DNA of 64,000 nt, taken from positions 11,316,261 to 11,380,260 of the forward strand of contig OZ007576.1 in NCBI GenBank assembly GCA_963931925.1. Direction: 5' to 3'. The translations under genes were made by a program, and so were the position numbers. Position 1 is the first letter of the stretch, and each line of letters begins with the position of its first letter. Origin of the DNA: Onchidella celtica. Taxonomy: Eukaryota > Mollusca > Gastropoda > Systellommatophora > Onchidiidae. Shown piece after piece: positions 12,001 to 52,991 of this stretch. Under the pieces are notes generated by a model, which did no database searches, had not been told where the DNA came from, and worked only from the letters and a program-made list of their open reading frames with translations.

Positions 12001-14777
12001 ATTTTGATTTCAGCCCATAGATGATGATCAGAAGAAATAAAAATTATAAATTTGTTCATATATCATGTTTTTGTGTGTTTTTCTTCTACTTTTTTGTGCT
12101 GCGAATGTCATATATTTGACATGCAAAACTTCCCTGAATTTACATTGACAACAAATAATCATTGCTACCAACCTGACACAGGTAATATTGTTTTTGAGTA
12201 CGGAATGGTGGCAAAATGGTTGCTGGTGTGTATAAACCCTAAAAAAAGTCCCCAGAAGCAAAATAAAATAAAATAAGAAGGTTTACATTTAGCCAAATGT
12301 TGCGCAACGTGTCCGTCAAAAAGCTGACCTGCTTCAGACAGTAACTAAACTGCTTTAAAAATAATTAAGTCCCAATTTTCACAATCAATAATAAAAAAAA
12401 AACCTTTAAAATGGTATGAAAGAAAAAAAATTAGTTGTTTGTTTTAAAAAAAGTGAAATCCAACACTAAATCTCGCGAGGCACGTGTCAGTCAAAGTCAC
12501 GTGACTGTCGCACGCAATCTTTCCTGTTTCGTTCTTTTGTTGTTGAACACCAACTGGGTTCACTTCCGGGAGATACAAAATCTGTTTGCAAAACAGATAA
12601 GTGCTGTGTTTTTTTACTCCTTTCTATTTGTCATAGTTTTTGTATTAAAAATGTTTGTCAAAACAATTCGCAACGGTGATTTTGCAACAGCTGATGCAGG
12701 TCAGAAAACTTGGGAATTGAAGACCGATAGATTTTATCATGTTTACCATATCCTTGTAATCGGCAGCCTTTCCAAGTATCTTCCCAGTATGATTAAGGGT
12801 TCAAACAAAGTCAAACGATGCGGTTTTAAAATTTTTAATAGGTGTCTTCTAATGCCCTACCCAAGCTTAGGTGTGATAGTCAAGTCACATGTTTTGACTG
12901 ACAGAAGTGCCTGGCTAGGGAAGTCTGAAACCCCAATTTTCCTGTTTCTATTCTGCCTACTTGTGAAGCGCTCTAATGGCCGACTTCCTGGCTATGCGAC
13001 CGACCCGATTTGTTTAAATTTTTCAGCCCTATGGCTGCCGCTGCTGCGTAGCTTCACTAAATTGGAAATTGTAACCCCCATGTCACATCTGATAATGAAT
13101 TTTGACACACTTATTGAGAAATGAATGAACTAAAAGAAGAACCTATTTACATTGGAATGCTGAAATGTGCTTGTTGGTTTTGTGAATGTGAAATGCTGAG
13201 CGGGGATGTGTGACACTACCTCTGCGACAGACGGACAATACACTTATTAATATTACACACTATTGCATCCCATCCCGTTTGTTGTCCAAGCATACAACAC
13301 TACCCACACAAAGGCAACACACTAGTACATGCATGTACTATACAATGTACTACAAGCATGTGCTGACCAATACATGATGTAGGCTTAGAAGGATGAACAG
13401 GCCTATTGGATGACCATGTGTAATAATATAGCCTACATTAATTGTAGGCCTCACCCATGCTTTACAGTTCAAACTGAGTCAGTACTGACAGTGACAGTAG
13501 GCACCTAAAGATTACCTGGTGATATCATTTACTATCTATAGTGACTATAGCTATTCATGCACTGTTCTTCCTCTCAAAATTGTATACAAAACTGGGGGGA
13601 CACTGGCCGGCCGGATATGGCCTGGTTGAACACATGGCGGCGTCATAGACAAAGCCGGATTCGGCTGGGTTGAACATCGCGGGCCATATTTAAAGGCCGG
13701 GTTAAACACAAAACACATTTTAAATTTTGTAACAGTTAGTGTAATACTAATAGTGAGTTTCAAACCTAAAAAGCATTAATCCATAGCATAAGACAAGTAC
13801 TTAGCTGTTACTGTTTCAGTTTTATACTGTTTTTATCTATCAGAATTCCACAATTTCTAACAAAATTTCATGACCTGACCTATTCAGACATCCATCATCC
13901 ATAATTTGAGTCATGTCTTCATCATGCAGGGGTCAGTTCAAATGTCAAAAATGGAGAAAGGAGTCAATCAAAGGTTAAGGTTTCAGGTTTAAGGGTTATT
14001 TGTTGAACTAGATCTAAATCTAGGTGACATTCATTCACTCGTATTTAGCCTATTCAAAGATCTGATTACAACAAGATACAGAATGTCATCATTATACTAG
14101 ATCTAAAATCTAGTAGTATTAGACTGATAAATTACAAGTATCCAAAATTTTGGCATGGCTATTAGATAATCTCTATAAGTCTAAATAGAAATTGTAGATT
14201 TTAAAGCACATATCGTCATATGTCATAATTATTAAGTTTAAAAACAGGTACCTAAGACTAAGTTAACACTAACAGACTCCATCAGAATAGGCTAACCCCT
14301 TGGCCTTGCCTTGTGTTGTAGTTAAATTACACAGCTGGATTCTGTAAAACCCTAGTGAAATGACACCCACCAAACACCAATTGGCAAGGCATATGAAACA
14401 AAACAAATAGATCTAGATAGGAACAAACTCAACAATTAGTCTAGTATAAGTATCTGATAATCTATTACCTGATCAAACTTTGCTCTCTCTTGTGCCTTTT
14501 CTGCTTTTTCAGCTTCAAGTTTTTCAACTTTATAACGTAATAGATTTATTTCTTCAACATCCTTCTCGTACCGAGATGCTAGTGTCTCTAACTGTTCTAG
14601 AGATCTAATGACTCTCGGCATCAATTCAGTGACGGCATCATTCCCGTAGTTGTGGATAAGTTTGTCGAATTCATGTGCGATGCCAGCCGCCTGATCATAC
14701 ACATCTGTGACTGATATCACATGAACTTCTTCACTAGCCATAATTCTAGCGCTGTGCAGACATCGCATGGCATCCAT
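72..14777 (-). CDS. RILPL1: RILP-like protein (RILPL1 type), 5' four coding exons; 3' end off window
   Basis: Coding exons, in order on the minus strand: up to 14777-14469, 1793-1643, 1073-955 and 308-72. All have GT-AG borders and compatible phases (0, 1, 0, 0), and the last ends at a GTTTGT donor, so the gene continues left of base 1. Exon 1 encodes an RH1 domain (TDVYDQAAGIAHEFDKLI, then LMPRVIRSLEQLE), followed by coiled coil. Exon 3 holds the family stretch LKETVDKQREELRSLKREL and exon 4 continues the coiled coil. The C-terminal RH2 domain, which binds phosphorylated Rab8/Rab10 in this family, is not in the window. RILPL proteins act in ciliary content and lysosome/centrosome traffic. 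ATGs occur at 14777, 14768 and 14741; the last has the best context (A at -3, G at +4) and may be the true start. The first intron is 12.7 kb and filled with LINEs. Confidence 0.85.
309..954 (-). other. RILPL1-like intron 3; nothing else seen
   Basis: The intron has a GTAAGT donor and a TTTTATCTGCAG acceptor. It is AT-rich with no recognisable repeat or gene. Confidence 0.5.
1794..3279. other. RILPL1-like intron 1, 3' part; no feature recognised
   Basis: AT-rich sequence between the acceptor of exon 2 and the left end of the L2-like LINE. Short open frames here have no recognisable similarity and are treated as chance. Confidence 0.4.
4752..5152. mobile_element. 401-bp non-autonomous DNA transposon with 8-bp target repeats, inside the L2-like LINE
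   Basis: The left end starts CACAGACTAATAAAT and the right end is its reverse complement (ATTTATTAGTCTGTG); the inverted match continues for about 26 bp with a few changes. GTCCGTCC occurs directly on both sides (4744-4751 and 5153-5160), an 8-bp target-site duplication. Eight-bp duplications are produced by hAT and P-superfamily transposases, and the CA start fits either. There is no coding capacity. It interrupts the L2-like frame just after the endonuclease, so it is younger than the LINE copy. Confidence 0.75.
5798..8728 (-). CDS. CR1 LINE ORF2: endonuclease and reverse transcriptase
   Basis: 976 residues with no stop. The endonuclease runs from about 35 to 255, with ETW at 69-71, GDFN at 176-179 and SDH at 246-248. 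The reverse transcriptase spans roughly 480-750, with SNYRPVAL, FLDFQKAFDTV, SGVPQGSVLGPLL and the catalytic FADD at 698-701. The C-terminal part includes IYKTYVRPHVEYC and WNGLP. Length and order are those of a full CR1/L2-group ORF2, which nicks target DNA and copies the element RNA at the nick. The ATG at 8728 lies inside the end of ORF1. All core motifs are present, which is unusual for a copy inside a host intron. Confidence 0.9.
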   Translation of the reverse strand: MAGPGTKKETGQALKLRSKNIKDCTGVSTNINSSKFSCYYTNARSLINKIDEFKNFVAGNKPDIIGNSETWGGDTVPDRMFRTDGYCLFRKDRSVRRGGGVFLLISEKLNPSPAGDITEDLEVEAIFCRVRVGHDKDLIIGVCYRAPDSSAEQNSSVINVLERIDTLKSLEILLMGDFNMPKIDFDNLEAPSAFPSIFLNKILDMYLTQHVTFPTLCEGRSILDLIFTLDEEKVSDIRPCAPLGKSDHVGIQWLFEIPIQSCVTIDQPKDKLNYWKGDYKAANTAFEEKNWEEVLISADIDENWNSFKKVVMNIAVKFVPKQKPPSENQRPQWITKKALKVIKKKHALYERYKRLGRGKDHEAYVKMRNEATKVCRQAKADYETKLVNSFKENPKNFYSYVKKQQSVKSSIPDLMTEEGTCTQTRKEAAETLNSFFKSVYIYEPDGDCPVLTPRVGNDDFLNDIQFTENDVTQLLFQLKPEKSPGPDKLHPKFFKECYALAKPLYMLFRKSLDIGVLPTEWKMANVSPIFKKGNRSQPSNYRPVALTSIICKLLETVIRNKIVEHLDKHVMLSRHQHGFQKGRSCLTNLLETLESWTQDTAEGKQVDCVFLDFQKAFDTVPFQRLLVKVRSYGISLKICQWIEAFLVGRKMRVSVEGNFSGWSPVNSGVPQGSVLGPLLFLLYVNDIPEIVHCDVKIFADDTKMWKTVISVEDCNDLQKDLDSVVDWSDQWLLKLHVGKCKSMQMQRNKAKKIDFTYTMIDGMTRKDLENISVEKDLGVVITSDLKPTTHCVQAVKKANSVLKMVKRSFHHLDTKTFSVIYKTYVRPHVEYCYQAWSPYYVKDIQLIEGVQRRATKLVKEIRDLPYNDRLEKLKLLTLEQRRLRGDLIEVFKLLKGFENVEWTQFFNRSSSDHLRGHSLKLQKPRSLSQIRQKFFSQRIVGAWNGLPESVVSSENINTFKNKLDKWWTVGDGSTIS
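8680..9828 (-). CDS. CR1 LINE ORF1: PHD-finger, coiled-coil nucleic-acid-binding protein
   Basis: 382 residues starting at an ATG. The N-terminus is Ser/Arg-rich. Residues 100-155 form a PHD-like zinc finger (Cys100, Cys103, Cys116, Cys119, His124, Cys127, Cys152, Cys155). About 160-225 is coiled coil. Next comes an RRM-like segment beginning near NVIVFGVPE, as in L1-type ORF1 proteins, then a charged C-terminal region. In such elements ORF1 binds the element RNA and forms the particle used in reverse transcription. It overlaps ORF2 by 49 bases in another frame, so ORF2 is probably reached by re-initiation or another unconventional mechanism (inference). Confidence 0.85.
   Translation of the reverse strand: MYTRKATGSRSSVSSTRSRSSSQPESVKTNLFQCLAENSNKPDETVDTRSRPSKSGQQVQNGGSGKSKSVSAPKVSEVRSGAILVSEVEDDDEEHRDSDCGVCHKTVGENDSGLCCELCEFWFHAVCEGISEENYNMINCLGDLRKGFHWYCRHCDKNVLKITSALARLEARQEQTEERVSSLEKQVVHSQEEVNIIKKRVNVIDDTFETVAGEKVLEAQKELMEREERKANVIVFGVPECDDKDYKKRIDHDKARFLKICEEIEVKDIEVVSCHRLGSREDSVKKGETRPMKVKLQNKIQQATLLRSSKKLAEREDEGLKNCHIKKDMTMKERDERKKLVEELKKREAAGEKDLVIFRGNIQKRHPWPGPGQRRKPDKPSS
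9995..10010 (-). promoter_or_regulatory. YY1-like motif at the 5' end of the CR1 LINE
   Basis: On the element's sense strand the motif reads CAAGATGGCGGCTGTG, starting about 10 bases from the 5' end. AAGATGGCGGC is the core YY1 site. Human L1 has a YY1 site at the same place, where it sets the transcription start; a similar role here is inference. Confidence 0.4.
11743..12430. other. Poly(A)/poly(T) tract and intron sequence; no gene seen
   Basis: An A-run (about 11754-11772) directly follows the L2-like (ATT)n and CTT-rich tail. The rest is AT-rich RILPL1-like intron. Confidence 0.4.
12471..12570. promoter_or_regulatory. Cluster of promoter-type motifs in RILPL1-like intron 1
   Basis: Within 100 bases lie TCTCGCGAGG (12471-12480), an E-box CACGTG (12481-12486), the palindrome GTCACGTGAC (12496-12505) and an ETS-type CACTTCCGGG (12561-12570). 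GTCACGTGAC is the exact core of the CLEAR element bound by TFEB/MITF proteins at lysosomal genes. ETS and TCTCGCGAGA motifs typify TATA-less promoters. The AT-rich surroundings make the cluster stand out. It could be an internal or antisense promoter; no transcript evidence is available. Confidence 0.35.
12651..13124 (+). other. Unassigned 158-codon open frame downstream of the promoter-like cluster
   Basis: The frame begins MFVKTIRNGDFATADAG and runs to a stop at 13124. No domain is recognised. A GCAG|GTCAGA donor-like site follows the 16th codon, so only the first few residues might be exonic if the cluster upstream drives a transcript. The remainder is Leu/Ser/Phe-rich and looks like read-through. 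It may equally be chance. Confidence 0.15.
13590..13715. repeat. GC-rich imperfect tandem repeat
   Basis: Three imperfect units of about 40-45 bp each carry a CCGG..GGTTRAACAC core (for example GGCCTGGTTGAACACATGGC and CGGCTGGGTTGAACATCGC). The patch is markedly GC-rich within AT-rich intron DNA. Confidence 0.4.
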
Positions 14778-14881
14778 TGAAAATGGTGGAGCGGAATTCC
14801 ATGTCAAAAGGGACAAATGTATGCGTCTCGTGAACTTGATTCATGAATCCATCGATCGACTCAGCCTCCACTCAGAATCCA

Positions 14882-17583: not shown

Positions 17584-20500
17584 ATGTCGTCCGCAGACCC
17601 AGATGACCATGAGGCTTCAAATCCTGGCTTTTTCATGAAATCTACAGTCAAAACAATTTGTCTGAAATATCCATCTGTGAAAAATATTTCCACCACAACA
17701 TTGGCCAAATGGCTTAAAGCACCTGAAGAAAGAACGGTGGTCATGTTGGTAAAATTACATTGTACCTTGTCACAGTTTCTTTATTAATTGTATGCTTGGG
17801 AATTTAGAGAAATATTTATTGATTAGGAAACTCCCAAATTATTTCATAATTGATCGTTTTTCAAGCTGACAAGAGCAATGTGGAGCTGTCTAGGAAATTG
17901 AACTTTTAAATCAATAGTGTTTGTTTTGTCAGGGGCTAATGTTGTGTGGTTACAGCGCAGTTTGTGATGGAAATTAGATAAGGCTGGGATGTATGTAACC
18001 AAGGTACGTCAAGTGAAACTGGCCACTATGGGTATTTGTTAAATACACCAACGCCAGGCATTTTCTGACTTGTCTCTTCCCCTCTCTTTAAATGATAATA
18101 ATAATAAGCCATTTTTGTAGCACCTGATTCCACAGAAGAGTGCTCTAAGTGCCTAACAGTTCTCTCAGTCACACAACACACATTTTCATCAACCTATACA
18201 TAATCACTGTCTCAAGAATGTTACATGTCCTGGATATACGCTTTTATAAACAACGCTGTTTTAAGTTTTCTTTTGAATTGGATCAAGCTGTTTGAATGTT
18301 TCACATGATCAGTCAAGTCGTTCCACATTTTAGGTACACACACCGAAAAAGCTCTTTCTCCCATGATACATAAGTAAAATTGTGCTTAACAATCATCTTC
18401 TCTTAGCCATATTGCAACACTGTCAAAAAAGCTGATAACTGTTCGCTGTTAACATATTTGGTAAAATATTATCAGCTTATCCAAACACTATAGATCAGAT
18501 ATGAATGTAATTATAAACAGTACCTCTTTAGCCATAGCTTCAAGTTTCCTAGACACAATCAGTCATATAGATAGTCACTTGCTAATGTCTTTTGCAGGAT
18601 TCAAGGCCAGAAGAAGAATATGCAGTCAGCCATTTGGGTGGAGCTGAAAGAGTGAACTATGAGGAGAAAGATATGGACAAGATAATCAAGACATTTGAAA
18701 CAAAATGTGAAGGTGCAGTAGACTGAGCTGAATCTTGCAGGAGCAGAGTTGTCTGTTCATAATTGATTGCAACCTACTTACTCTTCTGAATTTGATCTCA
18801 AATTTATATTTTGTGTTTCAGAATCTAGCAGGCCTAGTGTTCATGGAAATGAGATAATCTGTAAGACTCTTGTGAGCTACAGCAAAGAAATAAATTTACA
18901 GTGCAATCCTAATATCTTGACATCAGTGGGACCGTCTGACTTGTGTCGAGTAAAGAGAAAGTCGAAATAGCAGATTAATGGTGGAAGAGAGAAAAAAAAA
19001 AGGGGGGGGGGGGGGGGAATCAAACATCACCATAATGGGAAGTGTCCAATAAATAATGCAATTATATCCCTTTTTCTTTTATCGTCATACTGTCACCCGT
19101 TCCTCCAATATCATTTTGTGTGGAGTGGTTGCGTGGCAAAGATTTGTCGATATCGGAGAAATGCTGTGACTATCAAATGCGCAGTGCTTTACTTTTCTTT
19201 TTTTTTTTTTAACCTCGACCTGACCGTTTCTTCAGAAGACGTGATGATACCCATACACACACAGTATGGCAGTTAACCGAGAGGTCAAGATCTAGTATCA
19301 CCGGCACACGAATGTTTTGTGAGGAAAAAAAATTACTCAGTCTGCAGTACTGTGTACTTTTACTGCTGCACGCTTATGCAAGGCACTCCACACTCGCGTT
19401 ACTGAAGCCAAGGGTCATCCTCTGTATCCACACACCAACTCTCCTACCCCTCCCCGCCAGCACCGCAAAAACAAATAAAGAGGTCTTATCTGCAGGGAGT
19501 TACTTGGGCATTTTTGGTAGCACAGTAGTAGATCTAGTGCACTTGTTTTGCCGCGGTCAGGGAGAAATGTGTCGATATAAGAGGAAAGAATGGCATAACG
19601 CGTCGAGTTACGAGGAAATATTTAGTAGCATTAAAGAAGGAACAGGCTGGGACTTAAAAATTGTGTCGAGTTACCCAGAATGTCGAGAAAAGCCATGTCG
19701 GGATAAGTGGATTGGACTAGTTTTATCTCATGCAAAAATTACTCACAAAAAGAAAAACAAAAAAATTGTGTGAACAAGCACGCACATTCCACTTTGCTAC
19801 ATACTAGTGTTCAGACAATATGGTGTCCTTGAGTCCAGGATTGTGTGGTTTCTGAAAATCATGTCAGATGCAAGAATTTTGATTTCAAGTAAAGCATTTT
19901 GCTCTGAGAAATTTTAGTGCACTACATTGGTTATGCACTGCATCAAACCACAAATATATAGGGCTTAGGTGTTTATGATTTATTTTAATTACCTGAAATG
20001 TCATTAGCTGAGAATGAAGTTCTACATGAGCAAAAAAAATAACAACTACGGTACTTGCTTGGTCAAGATCTGAGTTAAGCGCATTTTACTGCAGCTGACA
20101 CAAAATCACACTATCAAAATTCTGCCGCCTGTGCTCATTACAATAAAGAGGACTGAACTGCCACACTGTTATGTTCCCAATTGGCCTATTGTGTGCTAAT
20201 TTTGTATCATTAACTTGATTGTGGCTTTTGTCTTGCATTTTTTACCTTTTTACAAGCAGAACACTTTTCAGCTGTCACTGTCAGATTTCGTTAAAGTCCT
20301 CCTGTAATAGTTTTCCTGATTTTAACCAAAATGTGCAAATAAGTTTAAGATCATGTCCAAACATTTAATCATGAAACTATTACAATGCAAAAGAACTGAA
20401 AGGAAACCAGACTGTATAGGGCACATCAGAGTTCATGTGCTGTCCTTTGGGGAATGTCTGGTCATACATGAAATAAGCCAAATTGGGATTGTTTGATCTG

Positions 20501-37956: not shown

Positions 37957-40900
37957 TCATTCATTTTTGATACCATGCTCCAAAATTGCAGAGATGTATT
38001 GCTTGTACCATCTATACATGTAACTTCGCTCTCGTGGAAAAGTTCCCTCTAGGAATCCAATGTGTCCCCCTCGTCTGGTTTTTATTATGGCAATGTTATC
38101 ATTTTCCTCTGCATCTTTCATGGGTATTGCTGAAAACAAAAGAAAATTACGATAATCTCAAGGTAGAAGTTATATCGGCCATATAGCCAATATACCCACT
38201 ACAGGATTCCTGTAACCACCTGGTGGCCAATGTCTGGAAAAGAATTCTGTGGCCATGTCACTAAGAAATATTGTAGACAATCAGCTAAACAATCCAAATC
38301 CTAAGCCTAAACCTTTGTTTAAAACTCACTGTCCAAAGAAAACCCAATTTGGACACATAGCACTGTTTATTCTTAAATTTTCAAAGCTTCCAGTCATTAC
38401 GAAATGTCACTTACGGCTTCCTAGATCATAATGGGCCAGTTGGTTTATTCACTATAATACATACTCTTTGATTTATGATGATATTGAATCTCATAAGCAC
38501 TATGAATTGTAATTGAAGAATAACAGATAAATGTATTACAAGAATTATTCCTTGACATTAACTATGGGAACAGGCACTTTACATTTTTCAAGTTAACATC
38601 TTGCATTTGTGTAGCTCTTTTTATAAACATTCTGCATCGTCTTTTATCAGGGTAAACAGTTACCAGGGTATGAGAATAATCTGACTTTCAAAATCTGCAA
38701 GCAACCATACTTTTAGATTATTGCATAGAAATCTTTAATATGACCTGTAAACTTACAATGCTCAGGAGAAAATGGATCATCGGCTGCACTCAAACATAAA
38801 ACTGGCTTGGCTAAAGCATGGACTTTTGTATGCAGAGATGCTTCTGTATAGTAATGGTCCACAGACTCGTAACCAAATACTTTGGATGTAAATCTTTCAT
38901 CAAAGTCCTTTATGGATTCACTCTATAACAGATGAAAATAAAAGCAAAAAATGAAATCGTCGGTTGGCTGTTGGAACCTCGTTAAGTCCATTTTTGGGCA
39001 AATTCACTTTTTTTAAAAAATGGAATCTATAGCACGAGACGCATCGGATGCACTTGAAAAAACGAAAAAATTCTGCTTAGTAGTTGAGAAAAGCGATGTT
39101 GTAATTCCGTGTTATAACCTTGTTAACGTACAGCTGGCGGAATGTCGGCGCTTGAACCTGGCTAAAATCGTTTGCCAGGTTATGCACCACTGGCAACGGC
39201 CAATTGTTGGCGTTTGAACCTCATTAAACGTTTAGTTTAGTAGCGTTTAATACTAAACGTTTAGTAAACGTTTAATAGCATGGTTATTACATGTACCAAT
39301 TGTTGTCGCTTGAAAATGAAGAAAAAAGTGAAAGTCGACAAATGTAGCGTCGATGTAAAAATCATTATTTCGTAGTAGTGCATGATTGTATCATGTTTAC
39401 AAATAACAAAACTGAAGAAGGGCAGTCATGTAGCATACCCTGTAACTCATAATTATTTTAAAGGGTTTGGAGATACAGGGAATAGGTTATTGTGTACAAA
39501 ATTCACACACGCATGCACACACACAGGCACACAGAGTAATTAGGTTTTTACCAAGTTTGAAATGACTTTATATAATTATAGTTATGTGCCAGTAAAATCA
39601 TTGAGTCTGGGGACGAATAAAAAGTGGACACTTTGAAATAGTCTAGATATCAACCGGCGTATATTTTGCGTCCGAAGTCAGAGATCTATTGTCATTAATG
39701 TAATCACCGACGGTAGGGTAAACTTGAATGAATAGATCAAAGGAAGGGCGGCAGCGAGTTTACGGCCTTTGAAGTTGCCGCTCAATGGAGTGGACACCGT
39801 CTTTGAAGAAAGTAAGACAAGACCGGCGAATATGGGCGGATCAAATGTGATCAAATAAGGGAATGGTAAATATTATTTTGGTAAATATTTTGAGTTAATT
39901 GATCAATCTGTAATTAATCATGCGAATCTTCGCCCCACCCACACTTTAATAGCTATAAATACTGTCAGTCTGATATCAATCAGTGATGAGACAAAGTAAA
40001 GCGCCCCACTATCTGAATTTTTGAATCCAGTGCTTTCCAGTATGTAACACATAAGTCACTGTGCATTTCCAGTTTGTTATTTTCAACGTTTCCTCTGAGC
40101 AGAGGACAATGCATGGTGCAATAAGCACTTTCAAAACCTGTTAGAGGAAGATGCCGATCGCAGGAGCCTTTAATTGACGTTGCACACAAACCTTACTGGT
40201 GTGAAAGTAGATCTCTCAAAGAAACACAGAGCAGTTCTCTCAGTGCACTAAACTGCAACCCTCTCTCAAACAACTATGCTGGAACTCTCTTGCAGAACCA
40301 AGTGCACAGCTCTCAGAGACCCTATGTGGAACTCTCTCAAAGAACAAACAAGTAACTCTCAAAGAACAAAAATTAAAATTACCCAAGGAACTGAAATGCA
40401 GCCAGCTCAAGGAGCAAACGAACAAATCTCTTGCTCTCCCCCCCCCCCCTCTCTCTCTCTCTCTCTCAGAACCAGAGCGCCACATTCTCAAAGTGCAAGA
40501 TGCAGCTCTTTCAGGGGGCAGCTCTCTCAAAGACCAGATTGCATCTCTCTTAATAAAGAACCAAAGTGCAGCGCTCAACCCCCCTTCTCTCTCTCTCTCT
40601 TTCTCTCTCCCTCCCTCTCTCTCTATCTCTCTGTCAAATAACCAGAGTGAATGTCTAACTCAAAGATCCAGTGTGCAGTTGTCTCTCAAAATACCTGACT
40701 GCAGTTTCTCTCACAGCCCCAGAATGCAGATTTATACAAGAACCAGAGTGCACCTCTTTCAAGTTGGATCTCTCCCAAAGAACCAAAATGCAGCTCTCTC
40801 TCTCAAAGGACTGGAGTGCATCTCTTTCAAGTTTCATGCCTCTCAAAGAACCAAAATGCAGCTCTCTGTCAAAGAGCTGGAGTGCACCTCTTTCAAGTTG

Positions 40901-41682
40901 GATCTCCCCCAAAGAACCAAAATGCAGCTCTCTCTCAAAGGACTGGAGTGCATCTCTTTCAAGTTGCATCTCTCCCAAAGAACCAAAATGCAGCTCTCTC
41001 TCAAAAGACTGGAGTGCATCTCTTTCAAGTTTCATCTCTCTCAAAGAACCAAAATGCAGCTCTCTCTCAAAGAGCTGGAGTGCACCTCTTTCAAGTTGCA
41101 TCTCTCTCAAAGAACCAAAATGCAGCTCTCTCTCAAAGAGCTGGAGTGCACCTCTTTCAAGTTGCATCTCTCTCAAAGAACCAAAATGCAGCTCTCTCTC
41201 AAAGAGCTGGAGTGCACCTCTTTCAAGTTGCATCTCTCTCAAAGAACCAAAATGCAGCTCTCTCTCAAAGAGCTGGAGTGCACCTCATTCAAGTTGCATC
41301 TCTCTCAAAGAACCAAAATGCAGCTCTCTCTCAAAGAGCTGGAGTGCACCTCTTTCAAGTTGTATCTCTCCCAAAGAACCAAAATGCAGCTCTCTCTCAA
41401 AGGACTGGAGTGCATCTCTCTCAAAGAACCAAAATGCAGCCCTCTCTCAAAGAACTGGAGTGCACCTCTTTCAAGTTGCATTTCTCTCAAAGAACCAAAA
41501 TGCAGCCCTCTCTCAAAGAACTGGAGTGCAACTCTCTCAAAGAGAGAAAGAGAGCGGCACGGGCAGGTGGATGCGGCTGGGGAGGGGGCAGTGAGCAAGG
41601 ACATAACATAGACAAAGATAGACAGAGGGAGAGACGGGCAGATAGAGAGAGAAGGGAAGGGACATGGAGAGAGAGAGAGAAG

Positions 41683-41757
<75 letters not shown>

Positions 41758-44700
41758 ATAGTAGAAATAGTAGAAAGAGAGATTTAATGATGTATTTAAT
41801 GTCTTTTGTAAACAAATGACATGTAATACTTTGTGTTACTAAAGAGTCAAGTGTGAATAAATAGTTTGGTTTAGGCTAGACAGTAAATCATACATTTATA
41901 TTACATTCATTCGCTCGGTGATGGTATGATACATAGGAAATAAACGAAGTGAAATACTAAGTTTCGAGGGATAAATTTAAAACAGAACTAAAACGGCAAA
42001 GACAACAATAAATGCCTCCGAGGCACTTTTAAACATATTTTTACTATGCCCAAAGAAAGGTAGCGAGGTTATACGATCAGCCAAGCGGCGCGATGTGTGC
42101 GCTTGAACCTCGTTAAAGCTTTAGGCAGGTTCCAACAGCCTACTTCGGCGTGTTATAACCTGCTTAACTCTGGTTATGTAATTACAGTAGGGTTGTCGTC
42201 AAAATGCAATATACGGCACAACTACTGGTCAAGAACATAGGCTAGATACCAAGTTACAGCTCCCAATGATGAAAACTACTAAAGATAATCAGTTTTTTCC
42301 TTCTCCTGTAAAATTTTGATTTTGGACTTAAGGAGGTTCCAACAGCCAACCGACGAAATACCCATTAAAATAGCACACATTAACAAAGAAGAGACCAAAA
42401 ATGAAAACAAATGGTATTATGAAGAGCCGATATGAGAGATCTGTATTTTTTCTCCTGAAATTCAAATTTTTCAAGCCTGCCATTTTCCTCCTATACATCA
42501 TAAGAAAGCACAAGAAATTAAATCCACAAAGGAAACTGTAAATTTCAAAACACAAACACTCTCTGGCCAAACTAGGATAAAGAGAAATGACTGGACAGAC
42601 TTGTTCCATCCTCAAATCAACATACAGTCGAGCACGCAAAACTCGAATTCTTCAGGGTGGCTTCATCTGGTTTGAGTTTCCTGAATTTCGAGGTATACAT
42701 TACGCATTCATCATGAAGTATTATTATTGAAGGAAAATAATAGTTAATACAGTTGCCAACATGTACCATGGATTACCTCCCCTACTGTGGGATGCCAGAG
42801 AAATGTGTATGCGCCTGAAGAAATGTCCCAGTTGTCGGCACAGCTATTTTTGAGTTAGGGGGTGAAAAGGTCGAAAAAGTCGTGCCTAGTCGGAAATGTA
42901 CTTCTAGCAGAAAACACAAGTTTAACCATTTCTAAATAGCATATGAAAAGGATTTTGGAATATTTTATGTTTAAATATTATTTTATTAATTATTTGTACA
43001 ACATGTGACTCTTCAGGAAGTAATATTGGAGTGATTGTTGCTAGGGGACCGTGGACTAATTACAAAGCCGTTATAGAGATAACATTGAGTAGTGTTCACT
43101 GCTCATTTATAGTTTACCGTGTAACATGCCACGGTCCCCTAAAAACAGCCAAGTCGGAAGTTTTTTGGATCTTGTTAGGAGAGCGCAGTATTTTACACAG
43201 AAAGCTAGAGCTGAGCAGTGAGCACAACTCAGTAGTTTCCCTATTTGCCTTTGTAATAAAACTACACTCCTCCAACAATATTCAAAAAGTCTTCATGGGA
43301 GAGAGCTGTTAAAGCTGTTTTTCTCAAAAGTTTGTTTTTGCCCCGTCTTACAAAATGTGTCATATCTTCAAAACTACTTAAGATATTGGAAAAAATTTTA
43401 AAAGCAGCGTGTTCAGCATTGACTTTTCTAGAAGAATATGCCCTTATCTCAAAATCCAAATTTTGCCACAACTGGGACCTTTCTCCAGGCACACACACAA
43501 ATAATCAATTCTGTCTTCCATCAGCTAATTTGCATACATACCCTGAGCACATGGGCTGCATCAATATCCACATGCCGCTCAAACAAGTGAAGATTTCTGG
43601 TGGAAGTAACAAAAAGATTATCAAGCTACTGTGTGTCAGTCTAACATCTTGAGATAACAGGGGCAGCAACCTTTCAGTTGCAAGAATTAAATGACAAAGA
43701 AGATAGATATAAGTACCAAATCAAGAAAAAAGAAGTATAAGTACTTGAGGCATTAAATCAAATTGCAGAATTAACTTAATATTTGGTAAAAGATTCTTAA
43801 AACTGTTTAATGTAGTAATCGTGTGTGTATTAAATTCAAAATACAAGGCTTATATTTTAAAAGAAAGAAAACTATTCTTTTTGCATGCCTTTCTATAAAA
43901 GAAACAAATTATGGTTGTATCTTGACGGCAACTTTTATATTCCTATATAATATGACACTGCCAAAGTTTTCAGACCGACAAATGTGTCTTCATAATGTTA
44001 CTGACATCGAATTTTCGTATCCATGTGGATTTACTATCATTTCCTCATGATCTTCAATTTCAACTGGTTTATACGTCAACTTATCATCCTTCCTTAAGAC
44101 TGTAGTAACTCAAAAGTTCGAAAAAGCCTGTTGTAGGGGGAAGATAGTCTAATTACATAACCAAATAGAGAAAATAGTGAGTTGTGTTCACTGCTCAGCT
44201 GTAGCTCTTTATGTAAAAAAAAACTGCACTCCTCTAGCAACAGCCTTTTTTCGAATTTTTGAATTACTACAGTCTTAGGAAATGGTGATGAATTTGGCAT
44301 GGCAAATGTTTAGTGGAAGTTTACGCTGTAAATTTCAGATATATGTGCTATATATTCATGCCAAAGAAACCTTACGGACCTACATGTGGTTTGTACACAA
44401 ACTTTTATGAGAAGCTTGACTGATGACAGTCTCCATAAAACAGTGTACACTAGTTATCTTGGCAACGAACCCCCCACTCACAGAATTTACTTACCAGTGA
44501 GATAAATAAGGAAAATAAATTAAGACCAGGGAAAAGTGTACATTCATGAATTCTGACTAAGTCATGTTCTTGTACATTAGGTTCTATGGTGACACCAAAC
44601 ATCTTTGGTAGTAGAAGATGCAGCATGATAGAGAATGTGATTAGGTTGTACGAAAACTCATGGAAAGAGTTTGAAATCTGGGATGGAAGTTGTCCGGAAA

Positions 44701-47700
44701 TTTTCTATTTTCGGAAGCTTTTTTTAAAGTAATAAACAGTTTTATCTATGTTATCTTATGTAGGTTTGGGTCTATACAAATACACATGTACATGTGTGTA
44801 TTGCAGTTGGTAGTGGCACATTAGGTCAAAAGTTTAGGAAATTTTTCTGTAAGTAGTTCCCACCCCTATGAACACACACAGAGGATTTCTTTGAGTTATT
44901 TTCCAATAGTACTTAATCATGGACTCATCATGTTAAGTAAAAGCACTAATCTGTCTTCTCACATTGTGGCTTAGCGTGAAATGGCTCCAAGGAAAAGTAA
45001 AGCAAGGCACACAAAAAAGGCATTATTCACACAAATATTAATGTATGATATAATTTTACAGGCAAAATGAAACAAATCACCACCTTGGGAAAAAAGCACA
45101 ACAATGTGCATGACAAATGCAAAGGTGCTGAATAGTATATTTGCGTGTTGGCAGGAAGAACTCACTTCTGGACCAAATAGCGCAGGGATTTAGCCAGGGT
45201 CTTGTTGAAGAGATAATAATTTATAGCTTTATCCAATGAATCAACAGCTGCAAAGACATCCCATCCCACCGAGATGCACATCGCAGCTTTCAAACCGGCA
45301 CCAGTTTTTGCCATATAGTTGAACAGGATCATGCTGAAACCGTTAGCATTTGGTCAAATGAAGCACAGAGTACATGAAAGCACAGAATGAAATCAATCAG
45401 AGGCTGAGTATGACCATCATTCATAGTCCATTATGCTGCATGTGAAAGCAAAGCAGTGTCATCCTACAAATAATTCTGTAACTGTTTTCTGCAAGTAAAT
45501 GGAAAATGTATCACTGAGGTGTCTGGTATCATGAACCTGAAGTTTTGACTCCTTTTCTCTTTTTTGTGTCTATAATCAGTTGATCCACCAGCGATGCAAC
45601 AAGCATCTCAACAGTCCCATAGGGCCTAGACTTATTCTGAACAGTCTCACCTGCATATACAGCCCAATCCACTTATCTTGACATGGCTTTTGTTGACATT
45701 CTGGGTAACTTGACACAATTTTTAAGTCCCAACCTGTTCCTTCTTCAATGCTACTAAAATTTCCCCGTAATTAGACGTGTCATTCCATTCTCTCCTCTTA
45801 TATCAACACATTTCTCCCTGACCAGAGCACAAAGTGCACTAGATCTACTACTGTGCTGCTCAAATTGCCTACGCAACTCCCCTCATATAAGACCTCTTTA
45901 CTTCTTTTTGCGGTGCTGGCGGGAAGGCGTGGGAGAGGGTGTGTGTGGACAAGAGGATGACCCCTGGCTTCAATAAAGTGAGTGTGAAGTGTCATGCAAA
46001 AGTGCATGGCAGTAAAAGGAAATAGTACTACAAACTGTGGATGTTTTCTGGGTTTTTTTCACAAACCATTCGTGCTCTGTTGATACAACGACTTGACCTA
46101 GATCTCTTGGTTAACTGCCATACTGTGTGTGTATTGATATCATCACTTCTGAAGAAATACTCAAGTTGAAACTAAAAAGAAATAGTAAAACACTGAGCAT
46201 TTCGTGTATCACTACAGTATCTCGCCGATATCGGCAAATGTTTACCATGCAACTGCACCACGCAACAATGATACTGGAGGAACGAGTGACAGTATGCCGA
46301 TAATTATGTTGATGATGTTTGATCCCCCCCACCTTTTTTTTTTGGTTCTTTTCCACCACTAAACTGATATTTTGACTTTCTCTTCACTCGATGCAATTCG
46401 GACGGTCCCACTGATGTCGAGATATTAGGATTCCACTGTATATACATGGATTTCCAAAGAAAGACTCCTTTCTGTCTCATCCACCCTAAAGCACAAATAT
46501 ACTTTTATAAGCTTACGAATCCATGCATCTGAATTAGCATCTAAAACATAAATAACGGGTGATATGTAGCAAACAATAGCAAATGGCCGATCAACCAGCG
46601 TATTGACCATGCATGACCAGTTGTTTCACTGATGATCTAGACGCTTCGATTTTACCCTACGCTTCGATTTTACCCTAACTGAATTTGTACTGCCTACTTT
46701 GTATTCGGTCTGACGAACAATACTGGATCTAGAATGCAAAGCAAAAAGCAGTCTATATTTGTCGCAGCATCACTTGCAAAGCAGTTTTATTTTGGAAGGA
46801 TTTGAGACCTTTTCACAATTAATGTTTAAAGCAAATTACATCACAGGAGACAAATGTTGCCAAATTGCATAATCAAGCTGCATTCCAGCCAAAGCATTTT
46901 TCATCAAATGGGGCCATTGAATTATAATGCAAGAACAGCTTTATAATAGCATGGGGTATACATATGACAAATGTCAATTGTTTGATGACTAAAGCCAGTT
47001 TCAACAGCAGCTATGATAATGCACAACTCAAGCCTTTGATTGATTTCACTGGGAAAGAAATGCATAAATTACTTACTTTTCAAAAATTCTACACAGCATT
47101 TTAGCCAGACGATTGTTGAGAATCCAGAAATTTACAGTTTGCTCCAGCGTTTTGGTGGATTCTAGCAAATCATAAGCCGGGGAACAAACCATTGCTGCAA
47201 TAATCTGTGCTTGACTGCCAGTTTTAGCTAGGTAGTTGAAAAGGATTACTCTAAACAGAAAAGGGAATACACATGAAACTGCAACGATTCATTGTTATGA
47301 AATACGACAGTTCTAAGGCTGAATGCATAGTAAACCTGACAAAGCGCCATAAAAATTAAGGATGAGGACATAAAGGTAGGACAAATGAAAAATAAAGAGA
47401 TAAAGGCCATGACGCCAGAAACTGTCCGGGAAGAATGCTGCCTGTTGCATTTTTCTCGGCAAGATGAAGACTAGTTTAAATAAGATGTGGAGAATTTTGT
47501 CACAAGCCATATTGAATTGCAACACTTTAAATCTGCAACTCTTACATAAATCAAATAACAATCTGAATGCATGATTTGAAATCAGCATAAAATATGAAAT
47601 TCCAAAAATCTATGAATCAAACCCCTCAGTAAGAGATAAGAAGCAAGTTATTGTCAGCAATTTTCTACTATCAGATTATTCATATTTGCCTCAAACTGAA

Positions 47701-50700
47701 ACATGACCTTAAGCACAAGTAGTGTAATCCCTAAGAATGAATTATCTCAATGTATATTCTTAGCAGTTCTCCTCTGCATTGAATAGCAGGCTACTCACCC
47801 TCCCAGAGATACTCCCACACCTACAACAGGGGCATCTGGATACTTGCTTTTGACATGATCAATGACCAATTCCAGGTCCTCAGTATTAGCAGCACAGTAG
47901 GTACGCGGAGTCTGTGTTGTTATAATTAGATTCAATAAAGCACACTTAAGAAAACAATAAAACAATTTCTATTTTGTACAAACTGACTGATCAAATGTAC
48001 ATGTCTTAAATCTGTTGGAAATCCTGACATTACACTGAGACGTACTTAATGTGCTCATCGTAGACATTTTTACAAATTTAAAGTCTGTCAGATTTGTCAG
48101 TAAAATATGAGGATAACCTGCAAAACATGAGCTCCATAGTTCTTAAACTGCCTATAGAGCCATGCAATTGTGAAATATATTTGTGCTTGGCACTAGTCCA
48201 ATAACATATGGCACCTTGAGGTGTTCAAGCCATTTATCACATTCTTCTCTTGGACCTCATACAACAGAAAACCACCCATTTTCCAATTAAAAGGATCTTT
48301 GCCATTCACCACACATAAATGGGAACATACATTACTTGGATTCAGATACACCAGACCATCAAGAAATTGGCACGAATGTACATGTGATCCTTCAGTAAAT
48401 GCTACTGATGAAATGAGGTCATGATTTAAAGGAATGCTGTACTATTTTCATTTACTTTCCCTGGTTTCTATTTGTTTCACAGGCTAAACAGACAGTCGCC
48501 CAATTCATTTCCTACCTTCAGGTCGGTATCCCCTGTTCCTCTATTGTTGAATACAACACTTCTGTAGCCCAAGTCCGTTGCATCATGCACCATGTGGAGA
48601 ATATAGTTTTCTTTACTGCTGCCTGTTGAAAGAATCAATATTATCAAAATCCTCTCTCTCACTTCTGATTTGCCTGCCTCAAAAAAACACACAAACATAA
48701 CTTCTCTCTCAATTTCTGTCCTCCTGTATGGTGACCATAGAGATACTATAATAAACTAGAGTCCGCACGCATGCACAAGTGCAACGCGTCGCAGTGGCCC
48801 CAATTGGCCTACATGCGCGCCATGTTGACTTGGGAAGGATTCGCTAGCGAGCAGGCGCTGGCTGTTCGACATCTCAAGGAATAGTAATCCCATCCCCGCC
48901 AATAATTATGTCAAAGTCATAATAGATATACTACAAATACGATGCAACTCAGGCTGTTGTTGCGGAGACAGTTTTTTTTACATAGAAAGCTAAAGCTGAA
49001 CAGTGAACACCGCAATATTTTCTGTTTGGTTTTGTAATCAGACTACGTCCCCCAAACAACGTTCTTCAAAATAACAAGTTCATAACTGGTAAAACTAGGA
49101 AGAGTCAGGGAAATTACAACATGCATAGCTTTGAAAAGAAAATCATGAGAAGGGCATGTTAGTAGTATATAACAAGGAAAAATGTTCACCTTCATACAGA
49201 AACAAAAAATATATATATTTTAGAGGTATAACTGGATCATATAAATAAAGAAAGAAAGAAGAGAATAGACATGAAAACTTTCAATTTTCTTCTCTCTCCG
49301 CACCAGCTTTTTCTTGCTATTTCTTAATTCAGCGGCCTTTGCACAGCTTTCTTTTCTTTGCATAAATTAATCTCTGCCTTTGTCCTCTCAAGATGATCTT
49401 CGATTGAGTGGTGGGCATATGAGTGATCTAGATCATACATACATGCCTTGGCCGGGGGGGGGGGGGGGGGGGGGGGTTGTTCAGCTCTCAGGATTTTTCC
49501 TCTTTGTGGGAGATGGTCTTCTTGGAGTTGGCAGTTTCTGCTTGAGGGAAGGATAATTTTCGAAAACAGATGGAATTGCCTTTGGTCTTAGTGTCTGTTT
49601 ATCGAGCCCTGCGTAATTGTCAGAGCTTAGGAAGTGAGCACTACACACTTAGTCATTCTTGGTTGGATACCAAGGCTTCCCATTCTCAGTTTGTCTACTT
49701 ATTCTGGCAATCCATTTAGCCAATCTCTCTGATTCCTTCCACGGAAAGCAAAAAAAAAAAAAAAGCAAAAAAATAAGTCACAATAAAAAATTGTTGTTAT
49801 TGTTTGATAAATAATATCGACTGGCATTTTCCATATTGTTGTATTATGTGCATCTTTGCCTTTTCAGGAAAATGAGGATTGAAAATTCAAAGAGTTGTGT
49901 AACATCTGGGGTTTGTTCCAGACCTTTCAAAATCGAAACTTAAAGATTGGAATGGCACTTATAATGAAAAGAGGAGTGAGAGAACCACTTTCATGACAAA
50001 GGCTAAAAAATCAGCACAGTGTCGCAAACAACAATATGGCAATGCCCCACGATATACTCATATTGATAAATATATTACAATAGGTTTTGATCTTTAGCCC
50101 TTCCCTATTGTCAATCCAATGCACTAAATGATCAAGTTGTTTGGACGTACGTTTTATTCATATCAAAGAGGAATTAGGCCTATGGAGATAACCTTGCCAC
50201 CCAGTCCCATCATGGCTGTCTGTTTTAACTGAGACAATCCAAAACACAAGGGTGATGGGGGTGGGAGGAGAATGATGCAGTACGATGACACGTAAATCTA
50301 GACATTATTAGCCCAGAGCATTTAACGTCCTATCTCCTTGAAACTGAGCCATCACTGTGCAGTCAACTCGGGGCCGCTTTGGCACTTGTTCATAAAAGAC
50401 CCAGGTCTTTGATTCTCTTCTGCCTTTCCTCTCCCCCCCCCCCCCCCCCCCCCCAGTCTTTCCTGTGTTTCTTCGCAAATGTGTAATTATAATTAAGACA
50501 AATGGATGTACAAATCACAGATGGCGTGCGTGGGAGAGATTGAAAGATGTTGTTATCGTAAACTGGGCTTGCTCAGCCTTAGATGGGAAGTGCAGAAGGA
50601 TAGAAATGATTTATGGAATTCTGAACCATCTTGCATACAGAAAAAATAACCCTCTGACTTCCGAAATCGCCACCCCAAGTCAAAATGGTCGCCACGAGAC

Positions 50701-52991
50701 TCTAATAGTTCCACGTCGTGTGACACCGTGCGCACTCTAGCGTAATAATATCTCTATGATGGTGACTGATAACTGAAGGGATTAGAATTAGAAGGGGTGT
50801 GATTGCCATTTGACTGCTTTTGAGAAAAGAAACAAAAAACATCATTTCAGTATAAACCAATCAAATTAAAATTTAATATTTTAATGTTTTACCCGATGGG
50901 TTGATGTCAGTGAGGCAAACATTCATTAAATCTGATTGGTTTACACTGAAATGATGTTTTTCACTTTATTCTCAAAAGCAGTCACATGGTGCTTAGATCC
51001 CTTCTAATTCTAATCCCCCAAATTTTATTTCGCAAAATCATTTTCAAAGAGAATGTTTTCACTGGAAGGACAGAAAGGTAGTGTTTTGACACCAGTTCAT
51101 AAATTCTCAAAAATGGAAAGACAGCAGGTGTGAAAACGTGTAAAATGATGACAATAAAACCTGTTAGGCCTGGCAGCAGAAGGATAGTTGGTCTTGTATC
51201 CTGAGGATAAGTGCTGTTGTTACTTTCTTCCCAATCAAGTCTGATTTCCCCACCATCAGGGGTTTTTAAATATTCACTGCAAAAGAACACAAAATGAATG
51301 TTTATACAAACAATCAGAAATATATATTAATTAACAGCTTTTAAGTTAGGTAAAACGTACTTAGTTGAAACTTTGAGCATTTGAATTACCCAAAACTTAT
51401 TCAAGATGCATCTCTTTGCCATCATTTATTCTAATTTCACTCTGATGTTTGTGACATGGTATGAACATGCTTGCTCTTAAAATGATTTGGATATTAAAAA
51501 ATATGGGTACCTGACGCTTCATGTACACTGTGACAACCTATTTTCAAAAACTTTCATATTTTTCGCTACTTTATAGAACACTTTCTATCACACAATTTTA
51601 CTGTCAAACACAAGCAATGAAAGTTAATATTACATATTTTACATATGTTTTTCATTACCCACCAAAAGTCACCAGAGTTCCAGATTGTTATTCATTAACC
51701 TTTTGCCGCCAAGCCCAAACATCCTTCCTTCCTTTACCAGCATAACAGATTTTTGGGTAGAATAGAAAGACAACCGGAGGTATGAAAAATTAAGAGTGTA
51801 AAACATGCCAGAGCAATGTTGGCCAATATGTTGGCCTCAAGGCAGTTATGGCATGAAACGGGAGGGCTGATATATTGGCTGTGCAGCGGTCTTCTGCAAC
51901 ATATGATGGGCTGATATATCAGCCTTGTGGCAGCAAGAGGGTTAATGTTACAGGACATGAAAAATGTTTAAACTTTTAATTTTTTTTCTTTAACCATCAA
52001 AGTCACCAGAGTTATGGACTGTTGTTGACTAAATGATCAAAGTTTTAACTTACCTTTTGTAATCGACTGCAGGACTGGATTGGATCACAACCCTAACAAT
52101 AGTCTGAACTCGAGATTCAAAACACCACCATGTTGGCCAGAATTTCTCTTTCGCAACAGGACAATGTTGAAATAGAAACTTCCTCAGCCTTTGATCTCCA
52201 CAAGCTATGACAGGTTTCTTGAAAGATATGATAAGAAAATATTGTTACAACTACCAAAAGCTGAAAACATTTTGTTGAGTTAAGACAATTAGGGAATGTA
52301 AACAAACACAGCATTAAAAATGATATGATGACAAATGATCACCTCAAAATATTGGTTTATGGTAAGTTGGCTATCTATATTATAATAAGGATGGCAATTT
52401 CATACTGTGAGCCAAAAATTGTTATACCATAAAATACTTTCAATTTCTTCATTTCACTTTTTCTTCATTAGTATCAATCAAACATCCACAATTCAGAAAC
52501 TCTACCGTACAAAAAAATGATCTGGTGCCTGAATTAATTCATGTGAAAAAATAAAACAGTCATAAAGTTGTATTCCAAACAACCTCATAAGGGATGAAAA
52601 CGGTACAAAATTAAATAACTTGGCAGAGGGCCCCCAAGGAACAAAAAGACCTTCCAGTAATTAACTAGGACATGAGATGAAGTTGTGGTATCAAATTCTA
52701 ACCTGTAGTCTCATAAAAGTAGATAGATAGCGATAGATACCATTTGGCTGGGTACAAAATGATGCAGAATTTCAATCTTCGATGAACATTTTTCACTAAA
52801 GTTTGAACAACAGAGTGACATTAAGGGAAAACAATATAAATTACGACCTACAGGTACCAGTGTTCTTACAATTTACTCACCTTTACTACATACACAAAAT
52901 AGTAAGTGGCATAAAGCCCTGCAAAACAAAAGGAGGCTGCAAAAGATGGGTGTTCTAGAGTTTTTGTGACAAATGACCACAGGATTTCCAT
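37957..52991 (-). CDS. ABHD3: ABHD1/ABHD3-type alpha/beta hydrolase (phospholipase), nine exons, one in two versions
   Basis: Coding exons on the minus strand: 52991-52881, 52217-52054, 51276-51161, 48622-48516, 47911-47799, then either 47250-47077 (6a) or 45333-45166 (6b), 43596-43542, 38922-38757 and 38129-37957. All junctions are GT-AG with matching phase, giving 390 residues with 6b or 392 with 6a. Residues 17-36 are an N-terminal membrane anchor. Family landmarks follow in order: [62 protein letters not shown]. The nucleophile is Ser201 in GVSLG, with Asp326/327 ([11 protein letters not shown]) and His356 (GGHIGFLEG) completing the triad in 6b numbering. ABHD3 cleaves medium-chain and oxidatively truncated phosphatidylcholines at membranes. 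ABHD1 is the close alternative name. A 5' UTR exon near 54640-54720 is possible but unproven. Confidence 0.93.
40210..40754. repeat. Degenerate flank of the 66-bp minisatellite
   Basis: Irregular CTCTCTCAAAGAACCAGAG-like units of about 30-40 bp, with CT-rich runs at 40437-40467 and 40584-40630, grade into the regular array to the right. Confidence 0.65.
40755..41545. repeat. Minisatellite, 66-bp unit, about 12 copies
   Basis: The core AAAGAACCAAAATGCAGC recurs at 40777, 40845, 40911, 40977, 41043, 41109, 41175, 41241, 41307, 41373, 41423 and 41489. The spacing is 66 bp except for one 68-bp and one 50-bp step. Each unit looks like two related halves that both start CTCTCTCAAAGA. Because 66 is a multiple of 3, long repetitive open frames appear on both strands. 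Confidence 0.92.
41640..41754. repeat. (GA)n microsatellite
   Basis: Nearly pure GA dinucleotide run, longest from about 41690 to 41754. Confidence 0.95.
43037..43150. mobile_element. Small fold-back repeat, copy 1
   Basis: The ends TAGGGGACCGTGG and its complement face inward. The core GTGTTCACTGCTCA is shared with three other copies in this gene. Confidence 0.6.
43171..43280. mobile_element. Small fold-back repeat, copy 2 (inverted)
   Basis: Same family in reverse: AGAGCTGAGCAGTGAGCACAAC, shortened here to its core, lies between GTTAGGAGAG and CTCCTCCAAC ends. Confidence 0.55.
44071..44309. mobile_element. Small fold-back repeat, copy 3, with long outer arms
   Basis: Arms of about 60 bp match in inverse orientation: CTTAAGACTGTAGTAACTC on the left against the complement of GAATTACTACAGTCTTAGG on the right, then CGAAAAAG and GTTG..TAGGGG. 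The centre is the shared GTGTTCACTGCTCAGCTGTA core. Confidence 0.65.
45166..45333 (-). other. ABHD3: ABHD3-like alternative exon 6b
   Basis: 168 bp with the same phases as 6a, a GGTTTCAG acceptor and a GTGAGT donor. It encodes [18 protein letters not shown], then [20 protein letters not shown] and [15 protein letters not shown]. It is the version closer to vertebrate ABHD3 (SVGWNTFACSESLEK). A pogo-like element (45660-46438) sits between it and 6a. Confidence 0.88.
45660..46438 (-). mobile_element. Non-autonomous pogo/Tigger-like element, copy 2, between exons 6a and 6b
   Basis: 779 bp flanked by TA on both sides (45658-45659 and 46439-46440). On the minus strand it begins CAGTGGAATCCTAATATCTC and ends GTGGATTGGGCTG. 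It is the inverted counterpart of the copy at 18899-19720. No transposase is encoded. Confidence 0.8.
47077..47250 (-). other. ABHD3: ABHD3-like alternative exon 6a
   Basis: 174 bp, phase entering after two codon bases and leaving after two, with a CTGTTTAG acceptor and a GTAAGT donor. It encodes [20 protein letters not shown], then [19 protein letters not shown] and a LNNRLAKML stretch. It aligns end to end with exon 6b at about 20 of 55 positions. Relative to 6b and vertebrate ABHD3 it lacks the SVGW motif. The frame is open and the splice sites are canonical, so it does not look like a dead exon. Confidence 0.8.
48957..49067. mobile_element. Small fold-back repeat, copy 4, nested in the 2.0-kb element
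   Basis: Contains GAAAGCTAAAGCTGAACAGTG and TTTTGTAATCAGACTACGTC-like cores of the family (core positions about 48982-49052), in the same orientation as copy 2. Confidence 0.55.
49454..49476. repeat. Poly(G) run, 23 bases
   Basis: Uninterrupted G run; length in the assembly may be unreliable. Confidence 0.9.
50433..50454. repeat. Poly(C) run, 22 bases
   Basis: Uninterrupted C run near the other end of the same 2.0-kb element. Confidence 0.9.
50777..51018. mobile_element. Long-armed MITE in ABHD3-like intron 3
   Basis: Arms of about 85-90 bp pair in inverse orientation: GGGATTAGAATTAGAAGGG, TGACTGCTTTTGAGAA and ACATCATTTCAGT are all repeated as complements between 50935 and 51018. The loop is about 70 bp. 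It starts 10 bp beyond the right target repeat of the 2.0-kb element. Its own target repeat is not clear. Confidence 0.7.

Follow-up and report, generated by a model that had tools for sequence, protein, structure and literature searches.

In the coq-2 gene of nematodes, annelids, and molluscs, the homologous exons 6a/6e are reported to be mutually exclusive (PMC7434440). These exons are exchanged within the core of the enzyme and are tied to a substrate switch; RNA-seq data support the splicing there, and removal of the exon in C. elegans supports the function (PMC7434440). Similarly, in human CYP4F3, one lipid enzyme gene is reported to gain two substrate preferences through the choice of either exon 3 or exon 4 (PMC12380495, PMC3022543). 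In a catalogue of tandem duplicated exon substitutions in human, fly, and worm, in which homologous exons replace each other, 236 human events are given, half of them internal, and the genes concerned are enriched for ion transport, membrane, and muscle or brain terms; the main text of this catalogue does not name ABHD (PMC9741552). Vertebrate ABHD3 is reported to be a phospholipase acting on medium-chain and oxidatively truncated phospholipids (PMC8389839), and in rodents an alternative or cryptic exon of Abhd3 is reported to be under hnRNP L control, in an account of that exon that describes no homologous pair (PMC5974433).

Here we describe two homologous exons, 6a and 6b, in an ABHD1/3-like gene of the gastropod Onchidella celtica, analyzed within a stretch of 64,000 nucleotides (assembly GCA_963931925.1, contig OZ007576.1, hereafter C10, positions 11,316,261 to 11,380,260; "the window," to which all coordinates below refer unless a contig is named). 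The nearest precedents for this pair are coq-2 and CYP4F3. The former differs in its transcript and functional evidence, whereas our pair is read from the genome sequence only; the latter differs in that it encodes a P450 rather than a serine hydrolase and in that its choice is reported to be tissue-specific (PMC12380495, PMC3022543). Among the open-access reports on ABHD3 splicing that we consulted, we found no description of an exon pair of the 6a/6b type.

Results

Gene structure and family

In keeping with a molluscan source, the genome has 33 matches to PF14830, a molluscan haemocyanin domain that gave no match in any of 14 prokaryotic control genomes. The ABHD1/3-like gene lies on the minus strand, as do all of its exons given below, and runs from approximately 52241 to its stop codon at 37957; the upstream end is approximate because it is the 5' limit of an upstream coding exon (KKPVIACGD...VDYK, 52054..52241). 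We keep the exon count of the original prediction, in which the exon carrying the nucleophile motif GVSLGG (47799..47911) is exon 5. This exon is preceded by exon 3 (...LLLPGLTG, 51161..51276) and exon 4 (48516..48622). Downstream of the 6a/6b pair lie exon 7 (43542..43596), which can follow 6a or 6b in frame, exon 8 (38757..38922) with the catalytic Asp motif AADDPFSP, and exon 9 (37957..38129) with the catalytic His motif GGHIGFLEG and the TGA stop.

A working copy of the human ABHD3 sequence matched the gene exon by exon, with tblastn segments 31 to 71% identical, and the partial proteins of the two isoforms matched Pfam Abhydrolase_1 with E values of 2.5e-12 (6b) and 2.2e-12 (6a). The hallmarks of the ABHD1/ABHD3 (YheT-like) family are present, namely a GxSxGG nucleophile, a DDPF Asp, a GGHxGF His, and an N-terminal part before the hydrolase domain; these motifs are general background on the family and were later seen in our alignment. 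Judged by its motifs, the predicted product is an ABHD1/ABHD3-like (YheT-like) serine hydrolase. Its triad motifs and domain are arranged along the protein as in vertebrate ABHD3, of which the working sequence, in contrast, has one form of the block encoded by exon 6.

The intron after exon 3 contains a foldback (50778-51017) with arms at 50778-50838 and 50957-51017 (80% complementary) and second arms at 50835-50870 and 50926-50961 (92% complementary). A long repetitive array with several frames open on both strands (40655-41600) lies in the intron that separates exon 7 from exon 8. Elsewhere in the window, open frames of 1025 residues (5798-8875, minus strand) and 415 residues (10235-11482, plus strand) resemble, by eye, a retrotransposon endonuclease and reverse transcriptase, and an open frame at 14436-14840 (minus strand) resembles the start of a RILP-like protein.

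A homologous, phase-matched exon pair

Exons 6a (47077..47250, 174 nt) and 6b (45166..45333, 168 nt) are adjacent and internal, lie between the exon of the catalytic serine and exon 7, and are both in phase 2-2. Both are supported by splice sites, translation, and profile score, and a genome search with the 6a block led to these two exons; their borders read TTTAG/AGTA ... AAAA/GTAAGT (6a) and TTCAG/CATG ... AGAA/GTGAGT (6b). On re-checking, the coordinates, strand, GT-AG splice sites, and phases given in the original prediction all agreed with ours. The alignment along the whole length, which it had put at about 20 of 55 identical positions, has the same residue in 22 of 55 internal codons with one 2-residue gap (24/57 with the two shared boundary codons), and its score of 114 compares with a maximum of 21 among 2000 shuffles. 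Either exon or both had also been predicted to join exons 5 and 7 in frame, and translations with 6a, 6b, both, or neither are indeed all in frame, giving 300, 298, 356, and 242 residues, respectively, from the exon starting at 51276 to the stop.

The intron flanks of the two exons share little or no similarity: global alignment of the 200-nt flanks scored -36.0 upstream (shuffle mean -37.8, best of 200 -21.5) and -23.5 downstream (shuffle mean -36.3, best of 200 -21.5). Because the downstream score lies near the top of its shuffles, some intronic similarity is possible, and with it a less extreme age of the duplication.

A tblastn scan found no third copy of the block in the window, and none was found in the 1.14-Gb genome when the 6b isoform and the 6a block were used as queries and the best candidates were scored. 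The sole other genome match to the block was weak and fell in an ABHD2-like gene on C16 (33% identity, E = 0.14). A second ABHD1/3 gene was likewise not found in the genome, where an ABHD1 query led to the present locus and to a gene at C10:7379095 (29% identical). The latter (C10:7379095-7379586) is a further ABHD-like gene with its C-terminal half in one 241-residue open frame that includes an Asp motif, a His motif, and ISPCYDA.

Constraint on both exons and fit to bacterial relatives

Between 6a and 6b, identical bases at codon positions 1, 2, and 3 numbered 29, 41, and 20 of 55 codons, and identity at position 2 exceeded that at position 3 (Fisher p = 1e-4). We ran 3000 neutral simulations matched to the third-position identity of the pair in this one genome. 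The number of identical residues averaged 6.0 and never rose above 19, short of the 22 observed, and only 13 of the 3000 runs kept both frames open. The codon-position pattern and the simulations together indicate that, for most of the time since they arose, both copies have been maintained as protein-coding sequence. Both 6a and 6b thus show purifying constraint as protein; one of them may have lost its function very recently.

We compared the block with prokaryotic members of the YheT/ABHD3 family; the search yielded 389 relatives, and among the 80 best, which we retained, both motifs lay in a single frame in 74. Against the profile of these 74, 6a scored 23.2 bits, 6b 14.9, and the working human ABHD3 sequence 25.5, and each exon outscored every reported shuffle of itself (best 6.3 for 6a and 7.7 for 6b; 426 and 451 reported out of 500 each). 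A second copy of the block was absent from the 74 aligned bacterial rows and from the working human ABHD3 sequence. After the core strand, the bacterial rows carry the motif S-[VA]-P-[FYL]-x-L, in which P and L are invariant (74 of 74) and S occurs in 73 of 74 rows; here 6a reads S-P-A-Y-D-L and 6b S-V-G-W-D-V, so that the third position of the motif is not P in either exon.

The original prediction held that the SVGW motif is kept only in 6b and that 6a may have strayed. Measured against vertebrate ABHD3, the statement on SVGW stands, and 6b is the nearer copy (45% identity to the working human sequence versus 31% for 6a). Measured against bacteria, 6a retains Y-x-L, whose L is lost from 6b, and 6a beats 6b on the bacterial profile. 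With the older Y-x-L part retained in 6a and an SVGW of vertebrate type in 6b, the picture of a strayed 6a is too simple, and the higher profile score of 6a makes it unlike a relic. A tree of the 58-residue block gave no order of events: the AU test rejected none of four constrained topologies (p 0.41 to 0.55), and we place no weight on the grouping of 6a with human ABHD1 in the unconstrained tree (59% support). A scan of viral contigs gave 7 pattern matches only and no relative.

Predicted position of the block

Consistent with the prediction that the swap leaves the triad untouched, the Ser, Asp, and His motifs were found in exons 5, 8, and 9, outside 6a and 6b, and the block lies directly behind the nucleophile motif of exon 5, as had also been claimed. 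Solved structures matched by sequence were general α/β hydrolases only (best E 3.5e-4 with one isoform and 6.6e-10 with the bacterial profile), and for this reason the block was placed by general knowledge of the fold together with the alignment. In this placement, the block should supply three pieces: the helix that backs the nucleophile, the core strand that comes next together with its loop, and the beginning of the cover over the active site. Given this α/β-hydrolase topology, a change in substrate preference is a fair inference, and exchange of 6a for 6b may alter acyl or head-group preference.

Splice sites, introns, and complementarity within the 6a-6b intron

The introns before 6a, between 6a and 6b, and after 6b are 548, 1743, and 1569 nt long. 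The pyrimidine fraction at the acceptor is 0.80 for 6a, 0.50 for 6b, and 0.45 for exon 5; the donors read GTAAGT in 6a and GTGAGT in 6b. Double inclusion meets no frame block because 174 and 168 nt are both multiples of 3, so neither frame nor decay could remove a double or an empty product. The 6a-6b intron is too long for simple steric exclusion, and a mixed intron class is absent, both exons having common GT-AG sites. Thus, with all four combinations in frame, a long intron, and one intron class, none of these features enforces the choice. Blocks by frame, short intron, or mixed class aid some mutually exclusive pairs and are not required.

Among ten pairings of 150-nt flanks, the start and the end of the 6a-6b intron formed the only outlier (-73.4 kcal/mol, z -4.5); the other nine gave z values of -1.5 to +0.7. 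No docking/selector pattern, in which a single site would pair by turns with a selector beside each exon, was seen among these flanks; weaker or more distant sites may exist. The predicted duplex of 81 pairs joins one arm at the start of the intron (46966..47076, minus strand, core AGTGAAATCAATCAAAGGCTTGAGT) to another whose end lies ∼25 nt upstream of the 6b acceptor (45359..45480, minus strand, core ACTCAGCCTCTGATTGATTTCATT). None of 1500 dinucleotide shuffles was as strong, nor was any of 150 in a separate set, but equally strong pairing occurred in 9 of 3000 pairs of segments drawn at random from the window. When the whole intron was folded, 58 end-to-end pairs formed, a number equalled or exceeded in 1 of 60 shuffles; of the six other introns of the gene, one formed 56 such pairs and one 44. 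Gapless helices across the halves of the 6a-6b intron were matched by 1 of 60 shuffles, and a whole-intron search for such helices between different introns gave nothing unusual.

Each arm matches the genome at its own place only, in a search that skips very common words, and an interspersed repeat (45661..46443, minus strand) lies between the arms; the idea that the pairing represents the inverted ends of a transposon is weakened accordingly. The repeat has a second copy in the window at 18894-19718 (76% identical). In SF1, a bridge between intron ends is reported to draw the donor and acceptor of a single intron close to each other (PMC10790352), and in known exon clusters outer introns are reported to pair with inner introns, and inner introns not with each other (PMC6071210). 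By analogy, the pairing of the intron ends may promote joining of 6a to 6b as easily as prevent it. The pairing is a sequence oddity that points to no particular outcome.

Recovery of the coq-2 pair

As a positive control, a UbiA-family search followed by the same self-comparison recovered the coq-2 pair in the O. celtica genome as a 131-nt exon (C6:33839535-33839665) and a 134-nt exon (C6:33843366-33843499) separated by 3.7 kb. Its exons share 22 of 43 exonic residues, with 28, 33, and 20 of 43 codons identical at positions 1, 2, and 3. This pair (within C6:33838001-33848000) is consistent with the reported rhodoquinone-linked splicing. None of four pairings of its exon flanks stood out (z -0.6 to +1.0), unlike that between the ends of the 6a-6b intron. 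The ABHD3-like pair resembles the coq-2 pair in kind, and the control is silent on the transcription of 6a.

Discussion

The 6a/6b pair is a genuine tandem exon duplication of long standing, retained by selection in a gene for a lipid hydrolase. We consider it probable that exon 6 was duplicated in tandem long ago and that both copies have been kept as alternatives, with an mRNA normally containing 6a or 6b. The homology of the exons, the constraint on both, the profile fit of 6a, the lack of further copies among the best-scoring genome candidates, and the recovery of the coq-2 pair make alternative use likely; each exon is probably used in transcripts, and the choice between them may be exclusive. 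The two isoforms would then have the catalytic Ser, Asp, and His in common, supplied by exons present in both. As expected from the fold, they would differ in the nucleophile-backing helix, the following core strand and loop, and the first part of the active-site cover. By default, the choice could be made by splicing factors acting on the stronger acceptor of 6a and the weaker one of 6b; the complementarity between the ends of the 6a-6b intron is a candidate for modifying that choice.

Several alternatives have to be weighed against alternative use. If 6a and 6b were normally joined in one mRNA, the protein would carry the block twice. Such double inclusion stays in frame, is suited by the GTAAGT donor of 6a, and could draw on the complementary ends of the 6a-6b intron, since such ends bring donor and acceptor together in the reported SF1 case (PMC10790352). 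We nevertheless hold it to be unlikely: the block is single in the 74 aligned bacterial relatives (of the best 80 of 389), 6a and 6b each still fit the single slot of the family, and, given the α/β-hydrolase fold, a further helix-strand unit inserted after the nucleophile and ahead of the Asp and His would probably drive the triad apart. It is similarly doubtful that 6b is constitutive and 6a a rare or tissue-limited cassette, which would make the pair alternative without being exclusive. The greater closeness of 6b to the working human ABHD3 sequence and the lack of an enforcing mechanism in frame, introns, or flank pairings speak for such an arrangement; however, the pyrimidine tract of 6a is the richer one, although exon 5 manages with less, and the better score of 6a on the family profile is unlike that of a minor exon. 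Finally, 6a could be a defunct remnant of an ancient duplication and no longer be spliced. This is very improbable in view of its open frame, both of its splice signals, the codon-position signature, and a family-profile score above every reported shuffle.

A more far-reaching proposal, which we put forward as improbable, is that one gene with two pocket-side blocks replaces the vertebrate arrangement of two genes, and that a helix clamping the 6a-6b intron sets the choice. Vertebrates have the two genes ABHD1 and ABHD3. Under this proposal, 6a would lie near an ancient S-x-x-[FY]-x-L type and 6b would be of the ABHD3 type, and a single-copy RNA helix at the ends of the 6a-6b intron would choose between lipid remodelling and a second, different activity.

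Returning to alternative use of 6a and 6b, exchange of the block with a constant triad would be a clean natural experiment on the choice of acyl chain or head group. The ABHD3-related phospholipase family is poorly understood, and the exon pair could show what determines that choice within it. If alternative use is true, this gene would be a further mollusc enzyme, after coq-2, that doubles its function by duplication of an exon and not of a gene.
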